From a virus, in IMG/VR virus record IMGVR_UViG_3300035212_003113, positions 307,676 to 371,675 of that record: a stretch of DNA of 64,000 nucleotides; one strand, written 5' to 3'. The notes beneath the pieces were generated by a model, which searched no databases, had not been told where the DNA came from, and saw only the letters and a list, made by a program, of their open reading frames with translations. This document shows positions 10,182-55,707 of this stretch, in pieces (within the stretch, counting starts at the first letter, position 1; each line of letters begins with the position of its first letter). Position numbers and translations under genes: made by a program.

Positions 10182-11528
10182 ATGGAGATTTCAGTAAAAA
10201 AGAACAAGATGGAGTTTACTAGGAACCCGGACTCAGACGCCGAGTTTCTTGCTGCTCTACAAGCAGATCACGCCGCTAAACGGGGTACTGCAGAAGAAAT
10301 TCCGAAGGAGAAAGCAATGAAGATTGGAACACGCCAGCACGTTAGTCTAAGGTTTGGAGTGGTCGGCAGCGGACAGGCTGGCGGACGCATGGCCGAGGTC
10401 TTTCACAAGTTTGGCTATGATGCATGTGCCATCAATACTGCGAAGCAAGATCTCGATACTCTTGCTATCCCAGAAGCTCGCCGGTTGCTACTAGATTATA
10501 CAATTAGCGGCAGTGGCAAGGATATCGAGATTGGTCAGGCAGCCATCGTAAATAATACCGAGCAAGTTTCTGAGTTTATAGGTCCGGTCCTGGAGAACTG
10601 CGATGTTGCAGTACTGACGCTATCACTAGGTGGCGGTAGCGGCAGTGGTAGCGCCGTACCAATGGTAGAACTACTCGCCGAGCTAGGCAAGCCGCTGCTT
10701 GTGCTTTGTGCGCTACCGGGCAGCTTTGATGACAGTCAGAGCAAATTCAATGCTACTGCTACACTCAGCCGTCTTGCAGAGTTCTCACAGCGTGGCATCG
10801 TAAATAGCCTTATTGTTATCGATAATGCAAAGATTGAGAACTCATTTCCTAGTCTCTCGCCATCGAAGTTCTGGGAAGTCAGTAATCGCAGCTCCATTGA
10901 ACCACTGCATCTTTTTAACACGGTCACTGCTATTCCCTCTGATCTAGAGGTCATGGATGCCATGGATCTAAGTCGCGCTCTCCTTGAGGCCGGCAGCTGC
11001 GCACTCTTTGGGAGCATGAGCATCTCAAAGGAGGAGTATGAACGCGATGACTCTGCTCTGCTCACCTCGATGATTCGCAAGCTGAGCGATGCTCTGCCGG
11101 CCGATGACTTTGACCTAAAGGAGGCGCAGGCCGTAGGTATCCTTGTAACTGCCAAGAAGGAAGTGCTTGATACGATTCCATATGCAAATATCGCGTACCT
11201 CTTTAAGTACGTCTCGGATGAGTTTGATTCATCGCGGTCATTCAAGGGTATCTATTCTGTTAGCCCAGAAGACGATTCAGACGACATCAAGGTCAGCTTT
11301 ATCTTCAGTGGCATGGGCCTTCCTACTCGCCGTATCGATGAGCTAAAGAAAGATGCTGACAAGCATCTCTCAAAGATCGAGGAGAAGCGCAAGAAGACGG
11401 CCGCCGGGATGCAAATGGGCACTGGCAAGACCTCTGTTAGCAAGGCCGATCAGATGATTGCAAAGGCCAAGCAGCAGCAGAGCGCAATTGGTAAGTTGCT
11501 TGGAAACAAGGTAGATCGCAAGCGATAG
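10182..11528 (+). CDS. Tubulin/FtsZ-family GTPase
   Basis: The protein has the nucleotide-binding loops of tubulin/FtsZ proteins in order: VVGSGQAGGRM (about 60-70), AINTAKQDL (83-91, like the FtsZ INTDAQAL loop) and SLGGGSGSGS (148-157, the GGGTGSG-type signature). The C-terminus is Lys-rich and coiled-coil-like. The ATG at 10317 has an AAGGAG site and may be the real start (403 residues); the ATG at 10182 has no clear site. Phage tubulins such as PhuZ and TubZ form filaments that position replicating DNA; a similar role here is inferred. A terminator follows, so it ends a transcription unit. Confidence 0.82.
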   Translation: MEISVKKNKMEFTRNPDSDAEFLAALQADHAAKRGTAEEIPKEKAMKIGTRQHVSLRFGVVGSGQAGGRMAEVFHKFGYDACAINTAKQDLDTLAIPEARRLLLDYTISGSGKDIEIGQAAIVNNTEQVSEFIGPVLENCDVAVLTLSLGGGSGSGSAVPMVELLAELGKPLLVLCALPGSFDDSQSKFNATATLSRLAEFSQRGIVNSLIVIDNAKIENSFPSLSPSKFWEVSNRSSIEPLHLFNTVTAIPSDLEVMDAMDLSRALLEAGSCALFGSMSISKEEYERDDSALLTSMIRKLSDALPADDFDLKEAQAVGILVTAKKEVLDTIPYANIAYLFKYVSDEFDSSRSFKGIYSVSPEDDSDDIKVSFIFSGMGLPTRRIDELKKDADKHLSKIEEKRKKTAAGMQMGTGKTSVSKADQMIAKAKQQQSAIGKLLGNKVDRKR

Positions 11529-46506: not shown

Positions 46507-46527
46507 GCCGGAACGAAACAAACCGGC
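46507..46527 (+). promoter_or_regulatory. 5' leader hairpin, ACGAAAC-loop family
   Basis: GCCGG (46507-46511), loop AACGAAACAAA, CCGGC (46523-46527), ahead of CGGAGG. Confidence 0.6.
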
Positions 46528-48743: not shown

Positions 48744-48757
48744 GCGGCACGGGCCGC
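48744..48757 (+). promoter_or_regulatory. 5' leader hairpin
   Basis: GCGGC (48744-48748) and GCCGC (48753-48757) with a 4-nt loop, before CGGAGG. Confidence 0.5.
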
Positions 48758-50053: not shown

Positions 50054-50082
50054 GGTCCTAAAAACAGATTCTTTTGATCCTG
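50054..50082 (+). promoter_or_regulatory. Bipartite promoter-like element, copy 17
   Basis: GGTCCT at 50054 and GATCCT at 50076. It drives the first of the three MSLIK paralogs through a 110-nt structured leader. Confidence 0.8.
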
Positions 50083-50094
50083 TTAGACAGAACG

Positions 50095-50122
50095 GCGGCG
50101 ACGAAACGATACGATGCGCCGC
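50095..50122 (+). promoter_or_regulatory. MSLIK leader hairpin I, copy A
   Basis: GCGGCG (50095-50100) pairs with CGCCGC (50117-50122) across a 16-nt loop that starts ACGAAAC. An AUG in the loop opens a four-codon frame (MRRT). Confidence 0.55.
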
Positions 50123-50137
50123 ACATAACGGGTTAAA

Positions 50138-50162
50138 CGTAGCGCCGGTGGTCGGCGGTACG
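50138..50162 (+). promoter_or_regulatory. MSLIK leader hairpin II, copy A (GTGGT loop)
   Basis: CGTA-G-CGCCG (50138-50147), loop GTGGT, CGGCG-G-TACG (50153-50162): nine pairs with one G-G mismatch. Matching hairpins with other stem sequences occur at 53400 and 54820. The loop GTG is in frame with the gene and could be an alternative start. Confidence 0.65.
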
Positions 50163-50192
50163 CTAGGCCCTAGAAACAAAAGGGAAAGCACA

Positions 50193-50705
50193 ATGTCGCT
50201 CATCAAGTTTGGTTCCAACACCGGCAACTCTGGCAACACCCTTGCTCTCCCCGCTCCCCGTGTGACGGCGCCCGCCCCTATGGCGCCGATGCCTCTCCCG
50301 GCGCCGGTCGCTGCGACGAGCACGAGCCCGGACATTGCGGCTCTTATGGCGAGGCTTGCGGCGGCCGAGGCGGGGCTCGCTACAGAGAAGGCCCGGGCCG
50401 ATGCGGCCGAGGCTGCCCGTGCGGCGAGTGGCGGTAGCCGTGGATACAGCATGAAGGCGTCGGAGAAGGGCGCTATCTCGATCTACGGCGTCTCTACCAA
50501 GTTCCCGGTGACGCTCTACGCTCCCCACCTCGTGGGAATCATCCGTGATCTGGTTATGACCGGCAAGGCGTCGGCGTTCCTCCGGGAGAATGCGGCGAAG
50601 CTTTCGGTCAAGGTCGACGGCACGGGCCAGGCGGGCACGGGTGCTTCGGAATCGGCAGTGCGCAGCCTTGCCGATGAGCTTGATCGGGTCACCCGCAAGG
50701 CGTGA
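50193..50705 (+). CDS. MSLIK-family protein, paralog 1
   Basis: The 170-residue product starts MSLIKFGSNTGNSGNTLALP. A coiled-coil-like Ala/Glu helix (about 60-84) leads into the conserved core: KASEKGAISIYGVSTKFPVT, LYAPHLVGI and FLRENAAKLSVKVDGTGQAG. The SIYG-x(3-4)-FPVTLY core resembles a small domain found in many phages and viruses whose function I do not know. Paralogs lie at 53453 and 54870. An in-frame GTG at 50148 would add 15 residues. Confidence 0.75.
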   Translation: MSLIKFGSNTGNSGNTLALPAPRVTAPAPMAPMPLPAPVAATSTSPDIAALMARLAAAEAGLATEKARADAAEAARAASGGSRGYSMKASEKGAISIYGVSTKFPVTLYAPHLVGIIRDLVMTGKASAFLRENAAKLSVKVDGTGQAGTGASESAVRSLADELDRVTRKA

Positions 50706-50717
50706 ACGGTAGGAAGG

Positions 50718-50742
50718 GGGCCGGGTTCGCCCGGCCCTTTCC
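50718..50742 (+). terminator. Terminator with TTCG loop
   Basis: GGGCCGGG (50718-50725), loop TTCG, CCCGGCCC (50730-50737), then TTTCC. Confidence 0.75.
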
Positions 50743-50751
50743 TTCCCCGCC

Positions 50752-50780
50752 GGTCCTAAAAACAGATTCTTTTGATCCTG
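50752..50780 (+). promoter_or_regulatory. Bipartite promoter-like element, copy 18
   Basis: GGTCCT at 50752 and GATCCT at 50774; 46 nt to 50827. Confidence 0.8.
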
Positions 50781-50788
50781 TTAGACAA

Positions 50789-50813
50789 GCGGCGACGACG
50801 AAACAAACGCCGC
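50789..50813 (+). promoter_or_regulatory. 5' leader hairpin, ACGAAAC-loop family
   Basis: GCGGCG (50789-50794), loop ACGACGAAACAAA, CGCCGC (50808-50813). Confidence 0.6.
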
Positions 50814-50826
50814 GAATGGAGACGCG

Positions 50827-51219
50827 ATGCGCAAGCAGTCTGCTCGTTCCCTCACCCTTGCTCTTTCCCGTGCCGCTGCTGACGTGCTTGTCGGCAAGCT
50901 GTCAAGCCTTAACTATGGGAATACCACCACGCCGGGGCCGCGTCAAACGGCCATCCTCGCAGATATTGCCCGCCGCAAGGCAACCCGGCGCGGGCGTCGG
51001 GCTGCTACTGCCGCTGAGATTGCGGAAACGCAAGGCATCCCGGTCTCCAACGTGGAGCGGGCGCTGTCCTGTCTCCGGTGCCGTGGCCTTGTCGACCGCC
51101 GGGGCACCCGGTTCGGCCTTACCATCCGGGGGACGGAAGCTGCCGCCCTGTTCTCCGGGGTGCAGGTGCCCGACGGCATCGGGCTGGTCCTGACTGGTCA
51201 TGCTATCCGCAAGGTGTGA
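50827..51219 (+). CDS. Winged-helix DNA-binding protein, candidate regulator
   Basis: The 130-residue protein starts MRKQSARSLTLALSRAAADV. Residues 60-105 read ATAAEIAETQGIPVSNVERA, then LSCLRCRGLVDRRGTRFGLT, a helix-turn-helix plus wing as in MarR-like regulators. It may bind the repeated promoter-like elements or host promoters; the target is not known. Confidence 0.7.
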   Translation: MRKQSARSLTLALSRAAADVLVGKLSSLNYGNTTTPGPRQTAILADIARRKATRRGRRAATAAEIAETQGIPVSNVERALSCLRCRGLVDRRGTRFGLTIRGTEAAALFSGVQVPDGIGLVLTGHAIRKV

Positions 51220-51234
51220 CCGTCCGGGGCGGGT

Positions 51235-51258
51235 CGGGGGAGAAATCCCCCGGCCTTT
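51235..51258 (+). terminator. Terminator-like hairpin with GAAA loop
   Basis: CGGGGGA (51235-51241), loop GAAA, TCCCCCG (51246-51252), then GCCTTTCC. Confidence 0.7.
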
Positions 51259-51270
51259 CCTTCCGGCCCC

Positions 51271-51299
51271 GGTCCTAAAGACATACTTACCTGATCCTG
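51271..51299 (+). promoter_or_regulatory. Bipartite promoter-like element, copy 19
   Basis: GGTCCT at 51271 and GATCCT at 51293; 21 nt to 51321. It serves two genes. Confidence 0.8.
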
Positions 51300-51320
51300 A
51301 TAAGCACAACGGAGGCCGGT

Positions 51321-51515
51321 ATGAAAAGCAAGTTTTCTTGCCCTACTTGTAAGCAACGCCCTGCGTGTGACTGTGCACCCCCGGACTATGCCCGGATGCG
51401 CCGGGAAAGCGAGCATGCACCGTCGACTGCCGTCTATGTTGCCGCCCTGCAACGTGCATGGGAGCACCGTGCGATGATGCTCGAAGCGGACGAGACCCGC
51501 GACCACCGCGATTAG
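51321..51515 (+). CDS. Small Cys-motif protein
   Basis: The 64-residue product starts MKSKFSCPTCKQRPACDCAP, with CPTC and CDC that may hold zinc, followed by a helix. It shares a transcript with the next gene (18 nt gap). Confidence 0.65.
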   Translation: MKSKFSCPTCKQRPACDCAPPDYARMRRESEHAPSTAVYVAALQRAWEHRAMMLEADETRDHRD

Positions 51516-51533
51516 CGGGTAGGAGGACTGCGC

Positions 51534-51716
51534 ATGAAAGAGCTTTTCTTTTGCATTGATCAGGAACACGTTGATGCCGGGGAGTTCCTGCCCGGCGAGA
51601 TCGGGCACTGGGCAGTGCGCGGACTCCCCGGCGGGGTGCTCGTATTCAACAACCGCTATCTAGCCGAACTGGTGTGGGCGGGTATCGCACCTCACCACGG
51701 CTACGCTCACAACTAG
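51534..51716 (+). CDS. Small protein of unknown function
   Basis: The 60-residue product starts MKELFFCIDQEHVDAGEFLP after AGGAGG. It is mostly strand-forming and ends AGIAPHHGYAHN. It is the second gene of its unit. Confidence 0.62.
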   Translation: MKELFFCIDQEHVDAGEFLPGEIGHWAVRGLPGGVLVFNNRYLAELVWAGIAPHHGYAHN

Positions 51717-51750
51717 GGGATCGGGGCGGACACCTGCCCCTTTCCTTCCC

Positions 51751-51779
51751 GGTCCTAAAAGCATACCGGGCCGATCTTG
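51751..51779 (+). promoter_or_regulatory. Bipartite promoter-like element, copy 20
   Basis: GGTCCT at 51751 and GATCTT at 51773, spacer AAAAGCATACCGGGCC; 16 nt to 51796. Confidence 0.75.
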
Positions 51780-51795
51780 ATAGCCGGGAGGCACG

Positions 51796-51987
51796 ATGGA
51801 ACGGCTCCGACAAACGCTCCGGGCGTTGTTCGCCCCGCCGCATTATCCGCCCGGCTATGCGCCGGTGTCCGGTCATGCGGTGCATTCATACGAGAAAAAC
51901 TATTTTCTGGCGGACACGCGCCGCCGTGCGAGGGTAGCCTATGAAGCCGCGAAACGCAATCTTGTTGCAGATGATCCTAACCCGTAA
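51796..51987 (+). CDS. Small protein of unknown function
   Basis: The 63-residue product starts MERLRQTLRALFAPPHYPPG after GGGAGG. A basic helix (TRRRARVAYEAAKRN) ends the protein. A smaller basic frame overlaps its 3' end. Confidence 0.62.
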   Translation: MERLRQTLRALFAPPHYPPGYAPVSGHAVHSYEKNYFLADTRRRARVAYEAAKRNLVADDPNP

Positions 51988-52072
51988 AGGCGGGGTCATG
52001 CGCGACCGCAAGGCGGAATCGAAACGCCGGGCGTGCCGGGGGCGAGTCCGCCGGGACCGCGACGACGAGTGA
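51971..52072 (+). CDS. Possible very small Arg-rich peptide
   Basis: The 33-residue frame reads MILTRKGGVMRDRKAESKRR then ACRGRVRRDRDDE. It overlaps the previous gene by 17 nt; an internal ATG at 51998 gives 24 residues. The composition recalls the basic peptide at 47422. Ribosome-site support is weak. Confidence 0.35.
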   Translation: MILTRKGGVMRDRKAESKRRACRGRVRRDRDDE

Positions 52073-52107
52073 CCGGCTGGGGCGCCAGCCCCACCTGGCT
52101 CGCGACC

Positions 52108-52136
52108 GGTCCTAAAAACATACTCCTCTGATCCTG
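52108..52136 (+). promoter_or_regulatory. Bipartite promoter-like element, copy 21
   Basis: GGTCCT at 52108 and GATCCT at 52130; 42 nt to 52179. The leader keeps the AGAAGCCGGAACGAAAC block seen at 46503, but its 3' arm is changed. Confidence 0.78.
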
Positions 52137-52178
52137 TATAGCAGAAGCCGGAACGAAACCAACTAGCAGGAGGCAGCT

Positions 52179-52472
52179 ATGTCCAAGGTTCACTTCAACA
52201 CCGGTCGTCTTTATGGTCCCCATGGTCAACGCATCGTGGCTATGCAGTGCCCTTCCGGCGAAGTTGTGTTCGTTGACCGGGACCGGGGCATCCTAGGTGC
52301 CTTGACTGAAAAGTCGGGGGAGATGGGCGCCAACACCGGAGGCGTCAAGGTGTTCCCGCCGTTGACGGCGGCGCAGGTACAGGCGGAAGTCAGTCGCCGC
52401 TATGTCGGCAGCTACGCTTATCAAAGCAGCTCACTGGCCTACCAGTTTGAGGCGCAGCTTCTCGCGGACTGA
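52179..52472 (+). CDS. Small protein of unknown function
   Basis: The 97-residue product starts MSKVHFNTGRLYGPHGQRIV after AGGAGG. The first part is strand-rich (GEVVFVDRDRG); the last is helical. No family is recognised. Confidence 0.67.
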   Translation: MSKVHFNTGRLYGPHGQRIVAMQCPSGEVVFVDRDRGILGALTEKSGEMGANTGGVKVFPPLTAAQVQAEVSRRYVGSYAYQSSSLAYQFEAQLLAD

Positions 52473-52509
52473 GGTCCGGCCCCGCACGCGCGGGGTTCTT
52501 TGCTGAGCC

Positions 52510-52538
52510 GGTCCTAAAAACAGATTCTTTTGATCTTG
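52510..52538 (+). promoter_or_regulatory. Bipartite promoter-like element, copy 22
   Basis: GGTCCT at 52510 and GATCTT at 52532; 18 nt to 52557. Confidence 0.8.
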
Positions 52539-52556
52539 TTAGACACGGAGGCGACG

Positions 52557-52850
52557 ATGCGCAGCAGCGAGCAGGTTTTCGTGGCAGTCGTTTCAACCTC
52601 CCGCCACTTTGGCGGGCATGAGGAAGGCGGCTGGTGGTTCGACTGGTCGAATGTAGAAAAGGCGTGGTCTTTTGACAACCCGCGCCGGGCGCGCCGGTTT
52701 GCCCGGCGGCTGGAACGCGAGGAAGCGCATTACGCGCCGCGTCATGACCGCTTCTCGGTTCTCGGCGGGACCGATGTAGAAGTCCGCCGCACGCGGGACC
52801 CGGAAGCACTCGCCGAATGGCAGAGCCGGCAGCGCCCGCGATACGAGTGA
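52557..52850 (+). CDS. Small basic protein of unknown function
   Basis: I chose the ATG at 52557 after CGGAGG. The 97-residue product has WWFDWSNVEKAWSF and an Arg-rich helix NPRRARRFARRLEREEAHYA, a pattern seen in small phage proteins of unknown role. Confidence 0.67.
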   Translation: MRSSEQVFVAVVSTSRHFGGHEEGGWWFDWSNVEKAWSFDNPRRARRFARRLEREEAHYAPRHDRFSVLGGTDVEVRRTRDPEALAEWQSRQRPRYE

Positions 52851-52893
52851 GCGGACAACGGACCGGGGCCTAGCTCCGGTCCCGAGTCCGGCC

Positions 52894-52922
52894 GGTCCTA
52901 AAAACATAAACTTTTGATCCTG
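52894..52922 (+). promoter_or_regulatory. Bipartite promoter-like element, copy 23
   Basis: GGTCCT at 52894 and GATCCT at 52916; 23 nt to 52946. Confidence 0.8.
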
Positions 52923-52945
52923 ATAGGTGCCACAACGGAGGCTGC

Positions 52946-53146
52946 ATGCAGGTGACGGAGATTGCGATTGACGGCAACGGCAACGCGACGGTGAACGCCC
53001 GCGAGGGCGGGATGGAAGCGGCGCTCGCCCGCGCCCCGTGGGCGCTGCGGGGATGGGCGGCGGAACGCTGCAATCTGGAAATGACGGGGCGGGAGTACCT
53101 GACCCGCCGCGCCGAGATGCTGCGGGCGCTGGCGGACGTCCGCTAG
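52946..53146 (+). CDS. Small protein of unknown function
   Basis: The 66-residue product starts MQVTEIAIDGNGNATVNARE after CGGAGG and has two short strands followed by an Arg/Ala-rich helix. No family is recognised. Confidence 0.65.
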   Translation: MQVTEIAIDGNGNATVNAREGGMEAALARAPWALRGWAAERCNLEMTGREYLTRRAEMLRALADVR

Positions 53147-53182
53147 GGGACGGGGTGCCGGGGGGGCACCTGACTCCGGACC

Positions 53183-53211
53183 GGGCCTAAAAACATACTC
53201 CTCTGATCTTG
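53183..53211 (+). promoter_or_regulatory. Bipartite promoter-like element, copy 24
   Basis: GGGCCT at 53183 and GATCTT at 53205. The only frame with a ribosome site downstream is the three-codon ATG-CGG-GGC-TAA at 53236-53247, after GGGAGG. Confidence 0.7.
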
Positions 53212-53328
53212 TCCCGCATACGTGGGAGGTGTGCCATGCGGGGCTAAAAGATTGCAAAACTTATCTGCAAGGGCCAACGGCGAGTCCGGGGGCGGGCGTC
53301 CTATTGTCCGAAAAGCGCGGTCGCCACC

Positions 53329-53357
53329 GGTCCTAAAAACAGCTTCCCCTGATCTTG
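53329..53357 (+). promoter_or_regulatory. Bipartite promoter-like element, copy 25
   Basis: GGTCCT at 53329 and GATCTT at 53351; 95 nt to the second MSLIK paralog. Confidence 0.78.
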
Positions 53358-53367
53358 TAGGGTGTCC

Positions 53368-53381
53368 CGGCGACGACGCCG
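53368..53381 (+). promoter_or_regulatory. MSLIK leader hairpin I, copy B
   Basis: CGGCG (53368-53372), loop ACGA, CGCCG (53377-53381), in the same place as hairpin I of copies A and C. Confidence 0.5.
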
Positions 53382-53399
53382 CGACGCAGCGCCGATGAC

Positions 53400-53424
53400 G
53401 CAGCGCCCGATGGTCGGGGGTTGC
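53400..53424 (+). promoter_or_regulatory. MSLIK leader hairpin II, copy B (ATGGT loop)
   Basis: The arms 53400-53409 and 53415-53424 pair around ATGGT with one G-G mismatch and one G-U pair. The frame from the loop ATG stops after six codons, so here the loop start cannot extend the gene. Confidence 0.6.
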
Positions 53425-53452
53425 GGATAGGCTAGAACGCAGGATACAAGCC

Positions 53453-53896
53453 ATGTCGCTTATCAAGCTCCCCGCCCCTGTCGCCGCCACCGTTGCCACG
53501 CCCGTCACGGCGCCGTCTCTGTCTCCTGACATTGCCGCGCTCATGGCCCGCCTCGCAGCGGCGGAAGCTGCGGTCGCGACGGAAAAGGCCCGCGCCGACG
53601 CCGCTGAAAAGGTCAAGGCGGAGTCGCGGGGTTATTCTGCGAAGGCATCGGAAAAGGGCGCGGTTTCCATCTACGGGGTTAGCGCCCGCTTCCCTGTCAC
53701 GCTGTATGCCCCGCACTTTGTCGGGGTGTGCCTTGACCTTATCATGACGGATAAGGGGGTCAACTTCCTGCGTGAAAACGCGGATAAGTTGTCTGTCAAG
53801 GTGGACGGCACCGGGCAGGCCGGGACGGAGGCGAGCCGGGCGGAAGTGCTGCGCCTCGCAGACCGGCTGGCCGGTGCGGTTGCCCGCCTGAAGTGA
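53453..53896 (+). CDS. MSLIK-family protein, paralog 2
   Basis: The 147-residue product starts MSLIKLPAPVAATVATPVTA. The Ala/Glu helix and the core KASEKGAVSIYGVSARFPVT, YAPHFVGVCLDLIMTDKG and FLRENADKLSVKVDG match the paralogs at 50193 and 54870. The spacer after MSLIK is shorter than in paralog 1. Confidence 0.75.
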   Translation: MSLIKLPAPVAATVATPVTAPSLSPDIAALMARLAAAEAAVATEKARADAAEKVKAESRGYSAKASEKGAVSIYGVSARFPVTLYAPHFVGVCLDLIMTDKGVNFLRENADKLSVKVDGTGQAGTEASRAEVLRLADRLAGAVARLK

Positions 53897-53978
53897 GGCG
53901 GGCCGGGGGTGGGCGGGGCGACCCGCCTGCCCCTTTTCCGGCGACCGGCGCCCGGCCGGACCCGCCGGGTTCGCCACC

Positions 53979-54007
53979 GGCCCTAAAAACATACTCGCCT
54001 GATCCTG
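53979..54007 (+). promoter_or_regulatory. Bipartite promoter-like element, copy 26 (no gene)
   Basis: GGCCCT at 53979 and GATCCT at 54001. The downstream stretch ends in CCTTTTTTTATT without a frame. Confidence 0.72.
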
Positions 54008-54086
54008 TAGGACGTACTCTGGTGACAAACCGGGGCGGGCGAACTATTCCTTTTTTTATTGCCCGGCGCGGGGCAGTCCGGTCGTC

Positions 54087-54115
54087 GGTCCTAAAAACAT
54101 ACGCCGACGATCCTG
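54087..54115 (+). promoter_or_regulatory. Bipartite promoter-like element, copy 27 (no gene)
   Basis: GGTCCT at 54087 and GATCCT at 54109. The shared 24-nt block follows 8 nt later. It faces the reverse copy at 54188. Confidence 0.72.
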
Positions 54116-54123
54116 ACAGACGG

Positions 54124-54216
54124 GTCAACGGGACAACCGGGGGCGGGATAGGTGCGTCGATTGCAAGAAAAAACCGGGGAACAATAACAGGATCGGGAAA
54201 GCCCGTTTTTAGGACC
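54124..54216 (+). ncRNA. Candidate short non-coding RNA from copy 27
   Basis: This frame-free stretch begins with the repeated 24-nt block and runs into an oppositely oriented promoter-like element. The 3' end is not known; existence is inferred from the element only. Confidence 0.35.
54188..54216 (-). promoter_or_regulatory. Bipartite promoter-like element, copy 28, reverse strand
   Basis: On the reverse strand GGTCCT lies at 54216-54211 and GATCCT at 54194-54189, with the spacer AAAAACGGGCTTTCCC. It is the only reverse copy seen and would transcribe against copy 27. Confidence 0.75.
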
Positions 54217-54255
54217 GGGATTGCCTGCAAAGTTTATGCCCCTTTTTATTGTGCC

Positions 54256-54284
54256 GGTCCTAAAAACAGCTTCTCCCGATCCTG
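54256..54284 (+). promoter_or_regulatory. Bipartite promoter-like element, copy 29 (no gene)
   Basis: GGTCCT at 54256 and GATCCT at 54278. The shared 24-nt block follows at 54291. Confidence 0.72.
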
Positions 54285-54290
54285 TTACGC

Positions 54291-54396
54291 GTCAACGCTA
54301 TAGTCGGGGGCGGGGAGAGGTGTATCCGGTGGATTAGTTATGTGGACAAAAGATCCGTTTTGTTTTTGCGTTTTATGATAGCTGACAGGGGCCGGC
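54291..54396 (+). ncRNA. Candidate short non-coding RNA from copy 29
   Basis: It begins with the shared 24-nt block and is followed by AT-rich DNA with a T run (CGTTTTGTTTTTGCG). The only small frame has 12 codons without a clear ribosome site. Confidence 0.35.
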
Positions 54397-54425
54397 GGTC
54401 CTAAAGACGGAGTCCGCCGATCCTG
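54397..54425 (+). promoter_or_regulatory. Bipartite promoter-like element, copy 30 (no gene)
   Basis: GGTCCT at 54397 and GATCCT at 54419, with the GC spacer AAAGACGGAGTCCGCC. Confidence 0.72.
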
Positions 54426-54433
54426 TAACCTGC

Positions 54434-54536
54434 GTCAACGGGACAACCGGGGACGGGTGCGGTGTGCCTAGTGGCTTTGTAATGCTGATGCAATGTTTGC
54501 AGGATCTTTTCTATCTGTTATTAGGATTGCGGCTTC
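54434..54536 (+). ncRNA. Candidate short non-coding RNA from copy 30
   Basis: It begins with the shared 24-nt block (20 or more bases identical to the copy at 54124) and has no frame with a ribosome site before the next element. Confidence 0.35.
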
Positions 54537-54565
54537 AGTCCTAAAGACGGTGTTGTGTGATCCTG
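54537..54565 (+). promoter_or_regulatory. Bipartite promoter-like element, copy 31 (no gene)
   Basis: AGTCCT at 54537 and GATCCT at 54559. The 180 nt after it are AT-rich and hold no supported gene. Confidence 0.7.
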
Positions 54566-54744
54566 TTGTGCTTTTACTGATTCTGGCTTTCCCTAACGGT
54601 AGAGAGCTGGGAGATAACTTTATAATCTTTAGCAGGCCGCCCGGGCTTGCTGGATAGCTATTGTCTCGCGCGCGTTGATAGGGATGCTTGGTAGGTTGCT
54701 AGATAGTACCTGCTAGAAAGCAGTTTTTCTTGACAGGGGGCGGC

Positions 54745-54773
54745 GGTCCTAAAGTCGGGGTCCGCCGATCCTG
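54745..54773 (+). promoter_or_regulatory. Bipartite promoter-like element, copy 32
   Basis: GGTCCT at 54745 and GATCCT at 54767, with the GC spacer AAAGTCGGGGTCCGCC; 96 nt to the third MSLIK paralog. Confidence 0.78.
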
Positions 54774-54785
54774 TAGAGCAGAACG

Positions 54786-54805
54786 GCGGCCCACTACATA
54801 GCCGC
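54786..54805 (+). promoter_or_regulatory. MSLIK leader hairpin I, copy C
   Basis: GCGGC (54786-54790), loop CCACTACATA, GCCGC (54801-54805). Confidence 0.55.
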
Positions 54806-54819
54806 AAAGGTGAAGCGTT

Positions 54820-54838
54820 ATACCCGGTGGTCGGGTAT
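54820..54838 (+). promoter_or_regulatory. MSLIK leader hairpin II, copy C (GTGGT loop)
   Basis: ATACCCG (54820-54826), loop GTGGT, CGGGTAT (54832-54838): a perfect 7-bp stem whose outer pairs differ from copies A and B. The loop GTG at 54827 is again in frame with the gene. Confidence 0.65.
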
Positions 54839-54869
54839 CTCGTGGAGCCTAAATACAGGGAGAGCATCA

Positions 54870-55297
54870 TGTCGCTCATCAAGGTCGGAACCCCCGTCGC
54901 CAACAACACCGTCACCTCTGTCAGCCCGGATGTGGCAGCTCTCATGGAGCGTCTCAAGGCTGCCGAGGCTGCGCTGGCAGCAGAGAAGGCCCGTGCCGAT
55001 GCTGCTACCAAGACTAAGGGCGAGGCGCGTGGTTACACCGCCAAGGCCAGCGAGAAGGGTGCTATCAGCATCTACGGTGTGTCCGCTCGCTTTCCTGTCA
55101 CGGTCTACGCTCCCCACTTTGTGGGGATTGCGCTGGACCTCATCATGACCGACAAGGGAGTGGCGTTTCTCCGGGAGAACGCTGATAAGCTCTCTGTCAA
55201 GGTGGATGGTACCGGGACCGCTGGTACCGAGGCTAGCCGTGCCGAGGTTCTCCGGCTGGCTGACCGTCTCGCTGAAGCTGTCGCCAAGCTGAAGTGA
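54870..55297 (+). CDS. MSLIK-family protein, paralog 3
   Basis: The 142-residue product starts MSLIKVGTPVANNTVTSVSP, has the Ala/Glu helix (MERLKAAEAALAAEKARADA) and the core KASEKGAISIYGVSARFPVT, VYAPHFVGIALDLIMTDKG and FLRENADKLSVKVDG, ending RADRL-type helix. It is very close to paralog 2 in the core. A start at GTG 54827 would add VGYLVEPKYRESI-like residues that resemble the extension of paralog 1. Confidence 0.75.
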
Positions 55298-55658: not shown

Positions 55659-55687
55659 GGTCCTAAAAACAGCGATTTCTGATCCTG
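55659..55687 (+). promoter_or_regulatory. Bipartite promoter-like element, copy 33 (no gene)
   Basis: GGTCCT at 55659 and GATCCT at 55681. Its transcript would include the left arm of the 15-bp inverted repeat at 55708-55722. Confidence 0.72.
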
Positions 55688-55707
55688 ATACAGTTGCCCC
55701 TCTGTCA

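Follow-up and report, generated by a model that had tools for sequence, protein, structure and literature searches.

The leaders of the four MSLIK paralogs of a virus that we take to be a jumbo tailed phage carry an interrupted hairpin (hairpin II) that has very probably been kept by selection as an RNA structure, with a RUGGU loop constant in 4/4 copies on stems that have been rewritten from copy to copy. The element may serve as a translational operator for the MSLIK protein, a reading that we hold tentatively, as plausible but short of probable.

The window, i.e., the whole stretch of DNA analyzed, was 64,000 nt long and ran from base 307,676 to the last base, 371,675, of the virus record. 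The assignment to the jumbo tailed phages was made because the window encodes a protein with a PhuZ-type tubulin profile match, a DnaB-like helicase, PhoH and a ribonucleotide reductase. The tubulin match is weak and belongs to a 448-aa protein at 10182–11528. A search for the phage RNA polymerase beta subunit (PF00562) did not find it. A 262-aa protein at L084:658–1446 (G000:C1:177957–178745), with weak matches to sigma-70 regions 2 and 4 and a CxxC...CxxC motif, is possibly a phage sigma factor.

MSLIK paralogs, their leaders and a promoter-like element

Three MSLIK genes (A, B, and C) were located in the window. A fourth paralog, D, absent from the sequence-only reading made earlier, was found at 12 kb in the record, the other three lying at 358–363 kb. 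The earlier gene starts at 50193 and 53453 were correct, whereas the third ATG, given as 54870, lies at 54869.

50193..50705, + strand, MSLIK paralog A, 170 aa (ORF, alignment)
53453..53896, + strand, MSLIK paralog B, 147 aa (ORF, alignment)
54869..55297, + strand, MSLIK paralog C, 142 aa (ORF, alignment)
G000:C1:12024–12440 (L003:1483–1899), MSLIK paralog D
50083–50192, leader A, 110 nt
53358–53452, leader B, 95 nt
54774–54868, leader C, 95 nt
G000:C1:11915–12023 (L003:1374–1482), leader D, 109 nt
50057..50082, + strand, promoter-like element before leader A (one of 68 record copies)
53332..53357, + strand, promoter-like element before leader B (pattern match)
54748..54773, + strand, promoter-like element before leader C (pattern match)

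The element preceding these leaders, CCTAAARNC-N10-GATCYTG, has 68 matches across the phage record (67 on the + strand), while the reversed pattern, used as a control, gave 0 matches in the record. It spans the region from 350.8 kb to the record end and then 2.9–123 kb, mostly directly 5′ of genes, and paralog D has its own copy 5′ of its leader. We read the element as a promoter, and infer that transcription starts just 3′ of GATCYTG. Its copies, of fixed spacing, lie in window 43120–63787 and at G000:C1:2944–123262, and come in two flavours, AAACAtt..TGATC and AAGCCGG..CCGATC. Six tandem copies, one every 59–81 bases with no ORF between them, occupy window 55662–56025. The sole minus-strand copy, at window 54217, faces the 3′ end of MSLIK copy B and would direct transcription that way.

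Among the 53 promoter–gene pairs with a plausible start, the four MSLIK leaders (95, 95, 109, and 110 nt) were the longest, the next measuring 85 nt. The leaders of A, B, and C had already been described as unusually long (95–110 nt), and inclusion of D extends that description to the top four places. Neither the MSLIK gene nor the promoter-like element had a close homolog in IMG/VR, GenBank phages, plasmids or species genomes, so that the covariation analysis below rests on four copies from one genome.

Pairing and covariation in hairpin II

The hairpin with an RTGGT loop that had been proposed for leaders A, B, and C was borne out by the sequence, by the predicted folds and by a scan of RTGGT sites.

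50130..50170, + strand, hairpin II of copy A, loop 50148–50152, GGGUU-aaa-CGUA-g-CGCCG-GUGGU-CGGCG-g-UACG-cua-GGCCC (fold, covariation, genome-wide model match)
53391..53432, + strand, hairpin II of copy B, loop 53410–53414, GCC-gauga-CGCAGC-g-CCCG-AUGGU-CGGG-g-GUUGCG-gaua-GGC (fold, covariation, genome-wide model match, RTGGT site scan)
54808..54850, + strand, hairpin II of copy C, loop 54827–54831, AGGU-gaa-GCG-uu-AUACCCG-GUGGU-CGGGUAU-cu-CGU-gga-GCCU (fold, covariation, genome-wide model match, RTGGT site scan)
Hairpin II of copy D, CCCCUA-AUGGU-UAGGGG, with the stem rewritten and the loop type retained

In the four-copy alignment, 8/11 stem pairs were changed on both sides with pairing retained, a number reached in 1/500 shuffles. 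Paired cells amounted to 81.8%, compared to 62.7% in shuffles, and the covariation score was 0.576; for both measures, 0/500 shuffles reached the observed value. When the partner strand was slid by 1–3 columns, only 0–2 double-changed pairs were obtained. The earlier view that stem II differs in its letters and still pairs, as expected of a selected structure, is thus sustained by these controls, as well as by the homologous leader D, which keeps both pairing and loop on a changed stem. An outer stem of 3–5 bp also differs in sequence in each copy (GGGUU/GGCCC, GCC/GGC, AGGU/GCCU, and GACA/UGUC); each is weak alone, and together they give modest support (combined Fisher p 0.008). The internal loops vary in size (3/3, 5/4, 3/3, and 10/9 nt) and sequence. 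Copy B and the outer stems of A and C contain GU pairs, which on the opposite strand would turn into AC mismatches; this favours an RNA of the + strand.

The + strand of the window contains 119 RTGGT sites, of which three were well paired (at least 8/11 positions of the flanks paired, the first four all closed), precisely copies A, B, and C. Given the loop, the chance of such pairing, estimated by shuffling the flanks, was 0.003–0.009 per copy. A covariance model built from A–D matched these four places only in the whole genome. A model of A–C, searched against 3.4 kb around D, had its best match precisely at the D hairpin (15.4 bits, E 0.0064; next match 7.2), although its alignment columns were derived from the model that included D. 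This held-out result supports a selected structure and falls short of proof by itself, because the A–C model missed copy D when the whole genome was searched with default filters.

We consider hairpin II to be very probably a selected RNA structure because its stem pairs are doubly changed, the shuffled and slid controls fail, the model is specific to four places and the leaders are the longest of the set. That chance, or plain shared ancestry of recently duplicated leaders, produced an unselected resemblance is hardly credible: the copies are indeed homologous and number only four, but neither the excess of double changes over the shuffled and slid controls nor the pairing of just 3/119 RTGGT sites would be expected. 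The conserved structure lies upstream of the ribosome-binding site, as in leader operators of the T4 gp43/gp32 type.

A long, structured leader with internal loops could also belong to a riboswitch sensing a metabolite or ion, and a possible short pairing of the 3′ strand of the outer stem with the Shine-Dalgarno region can be seen by eye. That pairing is just 3–4 bp, however, and hairpin II is a single interrupted hairpin with variable internal loops, devoid of a conserved pocket or ligand-binding core. At the gathering threshold, Rfam gave no match in the window, and the relaxed mode returned nothing relevant, only a sub-threshold PrrB_RsmZ at 50615–50744, outside hairpins II. A riboswitch therefore seems very unlikely.

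Hairpin I and the codon in the loop

A further hairpin, hairpin I, occurs in all four MSLIK leaders.

50095..50122, + strand, hairpin I of copy A, GCGGCG/CGCCGC (MFE fold)
53362..53387, + strand, hairpin I of copy B, CGGCG/CGCCG with outer GUGUC/GACGC (fold)
54786..54805, + strand, hairpin I of copy C, GCGGC/GCCGC (fold)

The sequence-only reading had joined both hairpins into one unit. Hairpin I is present as described, but the unit did not stand, the same type of hairpin being found 5′ of many other phage genes: GCGGCG[13 nt]CGCCGC at 50789–50813, before the gene at 50827, GCCGG[11]CCGGC at 46507, and GCGGC[4]GCCGC at 48744. We therefore treat hairpin I as a general 5′ hairpin of the phage transcripts, outside the special element, which perhaps protects mRNA ends. 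Four other leaders (window 43146, 43716, 44207, and 45187) have in common a 5′ hairpin whose loops resemble one another, (A)GACAGGG-(21 nt)-CCCTGTC(T). Kissing between loops I and II was rejected as a candidate, the complementary CCAC occurring in loop I of C only. A third, short hairpin (RAGC...GCUY) can be drawn around the start codon, but covariation is limited to one of its pairs, and no claim is made for it.

The loops read RTG GTY in all four copies, and their GTG or ATG had been suggested as an alternative start, which would give N-terminally extended products from A and C, where the loop frame is open into the gene, and a short upstream peptide from B and D. This suggestion found no backing and is most improbable, since the codon has no Shine-Dalgarno sequence 5′ of it and lies within a stable hairpin, and the frames of B and D stop after 6 and 4 codons, respectively. 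The open frames of A and C are most simply explained by homologous, GC-rich sequences.

A possible translational operator of the MSLIK protein

We prefer to read hairpin II as a cis-acting translational operator whose ligand would be MSLIK itself, with the paralogs in one feedback loop. The transcript would start just 3′ of the promoter-like element, and hairpin II would fold about 20–60 nt upstream of the start codon. Excess MSLIK protein from one or several paralogs would bind the RUGGU loop and stem, and would then hinder the nearby ribosome-binding site and lower translation, so that all four paralogs would share one loop of control. In the predicted folds, the Shine-Dalgarno sequence was only partly exposed, with no clean on/off switch.

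We infer binding of hairpin II by MSLIK, and lowered translation upon binding, from several lines of evidence. The element is common to all four genes, restricted to one family genome-wide, and stays with that family though D sits far away (12 vs. 358–363 kb). The loop is constant while the stem drifts, as in protein-bound hairpins, the weak PC4 and PUR structural neighbours of the protein are nucleic-acid binders, and T4 gp43 and gp32 are precedents for autogenous repression in phages. Alternatively, another phage or host protein could control the four genes as a regulon, with MSLIK not binding at all. The hairpin evidence would be the same, as one factor could recognise the common RUGGU loop, and RNA binding by MSLIK is a weak structural lead only; nevertheless, confinement of the element to one gene family is the simplest sign of self-binding, and we regard such a regulon as unlikely. 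A passive mRNA element, acting without a trans factor on 5′ end stability, RNase steering or, as a standby site or structural insulator, the rate of translation, appears slightly less likely again. It would fit with the frequency of 5′ hairpins in phage leaders and with fold energies that are 1.3–2.4 sd below shuffles for A–C (not for D), but it has no need of a constant loop, and RUGGU is found in 4/4 copies and is absent from the other hairpins.

In alignment, all four paralogs have a coiled coil together with a conserved core whose family signature is KGAxSIYGxxRFPVTLY; annotated members of this core family are listed as ‘hypothetical protein’. The core family was also found in other phage contigs, one plasmid, a 595-kb phage record, and genome contigs of proteobacteria, myxococci and planctomycetes. 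Distant relatives of the MSLIK protein were without such a leader, indicating that the family can do without it. No significant match was found for the MSLIK protein in Pfam, PHROGs, NCBIfam or PDB sequences. In the AlphaFold model (mean pLDDT 89), three strands lead into helices and form a small beta-beta-beta-alpha core, for which Foldseek gave no match under E 0.001 against PDB and viral models. A second look yielded weak structural neighbours, all with VIA Z ≤4.3: PC4 (1pcf, with Z 4.0 and rmsd 3.2 for 48 aligned residues) and, at Z 2.7–3.4, four entries of PUR domains, including 3nm7 (3.4), 8chw (3.1), and 5fgo (3.0). Both domains resemble the MSLIK core in having strands and then a helix, but the structural match is weak and has no counterpart in sequence: PF02229 (PC4) was unlisted for 17/17 family members at E up to 10, and hhalign against PC4 gave unconvincing probabilities of 4.8% and 10.3%. 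Nucleic-acid binding by MSLIK is thus a lead only. A bacterial PUR protein prefers RNA (PMC3764826).

In T4, the nucleic-acid-binding proteins gp43 and gp32 each repress translation of their own mRNA via a structured leader; the T4/RB69 gene 43 operator is a hairpin, some 40 nt 5′ of the start codon, that is recognised chiefly by its loop (PMC3014915). The early gene 43 (DNA polymerase) and the MSLIK genes are alike in a phage leader hairpin with a distinctive loop; they differ in the protein, in the loop (UAAC vs. RUGGU) and in the number of genes (one vs. four paralogs), and the present case is known from sequence only. The gene 32 operator, likewise a structured phage leader, comprises a pseudoknot and an unstructured run, neither of which is evident in the MSLIK leaders. 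In the coat-protein operators of MS2 and Qbeta, stem sequence is tolerated while loop bases and stem interruptions are recognised, features that hairpin II resembles; MS2 and Qbeta are, however, RNA phages, and their operator hairpin contains the start codon.

Leader RNAs of jumbo phages are little described, and hairpin II, linked to a family of hypothetical proteins, offers a defined target whose four copies already supply the compensatory variants. If MSLIK binds it, this would be the family’s first function and would place several paralogs under one RNA-level feedback. The wider proposal that four PC4/PUR-like paralogs cross-regulate via the shared RUGGU hairpin, which would then constitute a novel RNA operator family of phages and the first known RNA target of the KGAxSIYGxxRFPVTLY family, is doubtful at present.

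Pairing of RUGGU with nearby noncoding transcripts was considered and rejected, as only one of these transcripts (56026) contains ACCAY and duplex energies were near those of shuffles. A foldable noncoding motif, GYC-AA-CG(N7)CG-GG-GRC-GGG, is found in five copies at window 53273, 54124, 54291, 54434, and 55605, and elsewhere in the genome as one doubtful two-mismatch match on the opposite strand only. Its Y–R pair varies (U–G, U–A, and C–G), and the copies cluster around MSLIK B and C.
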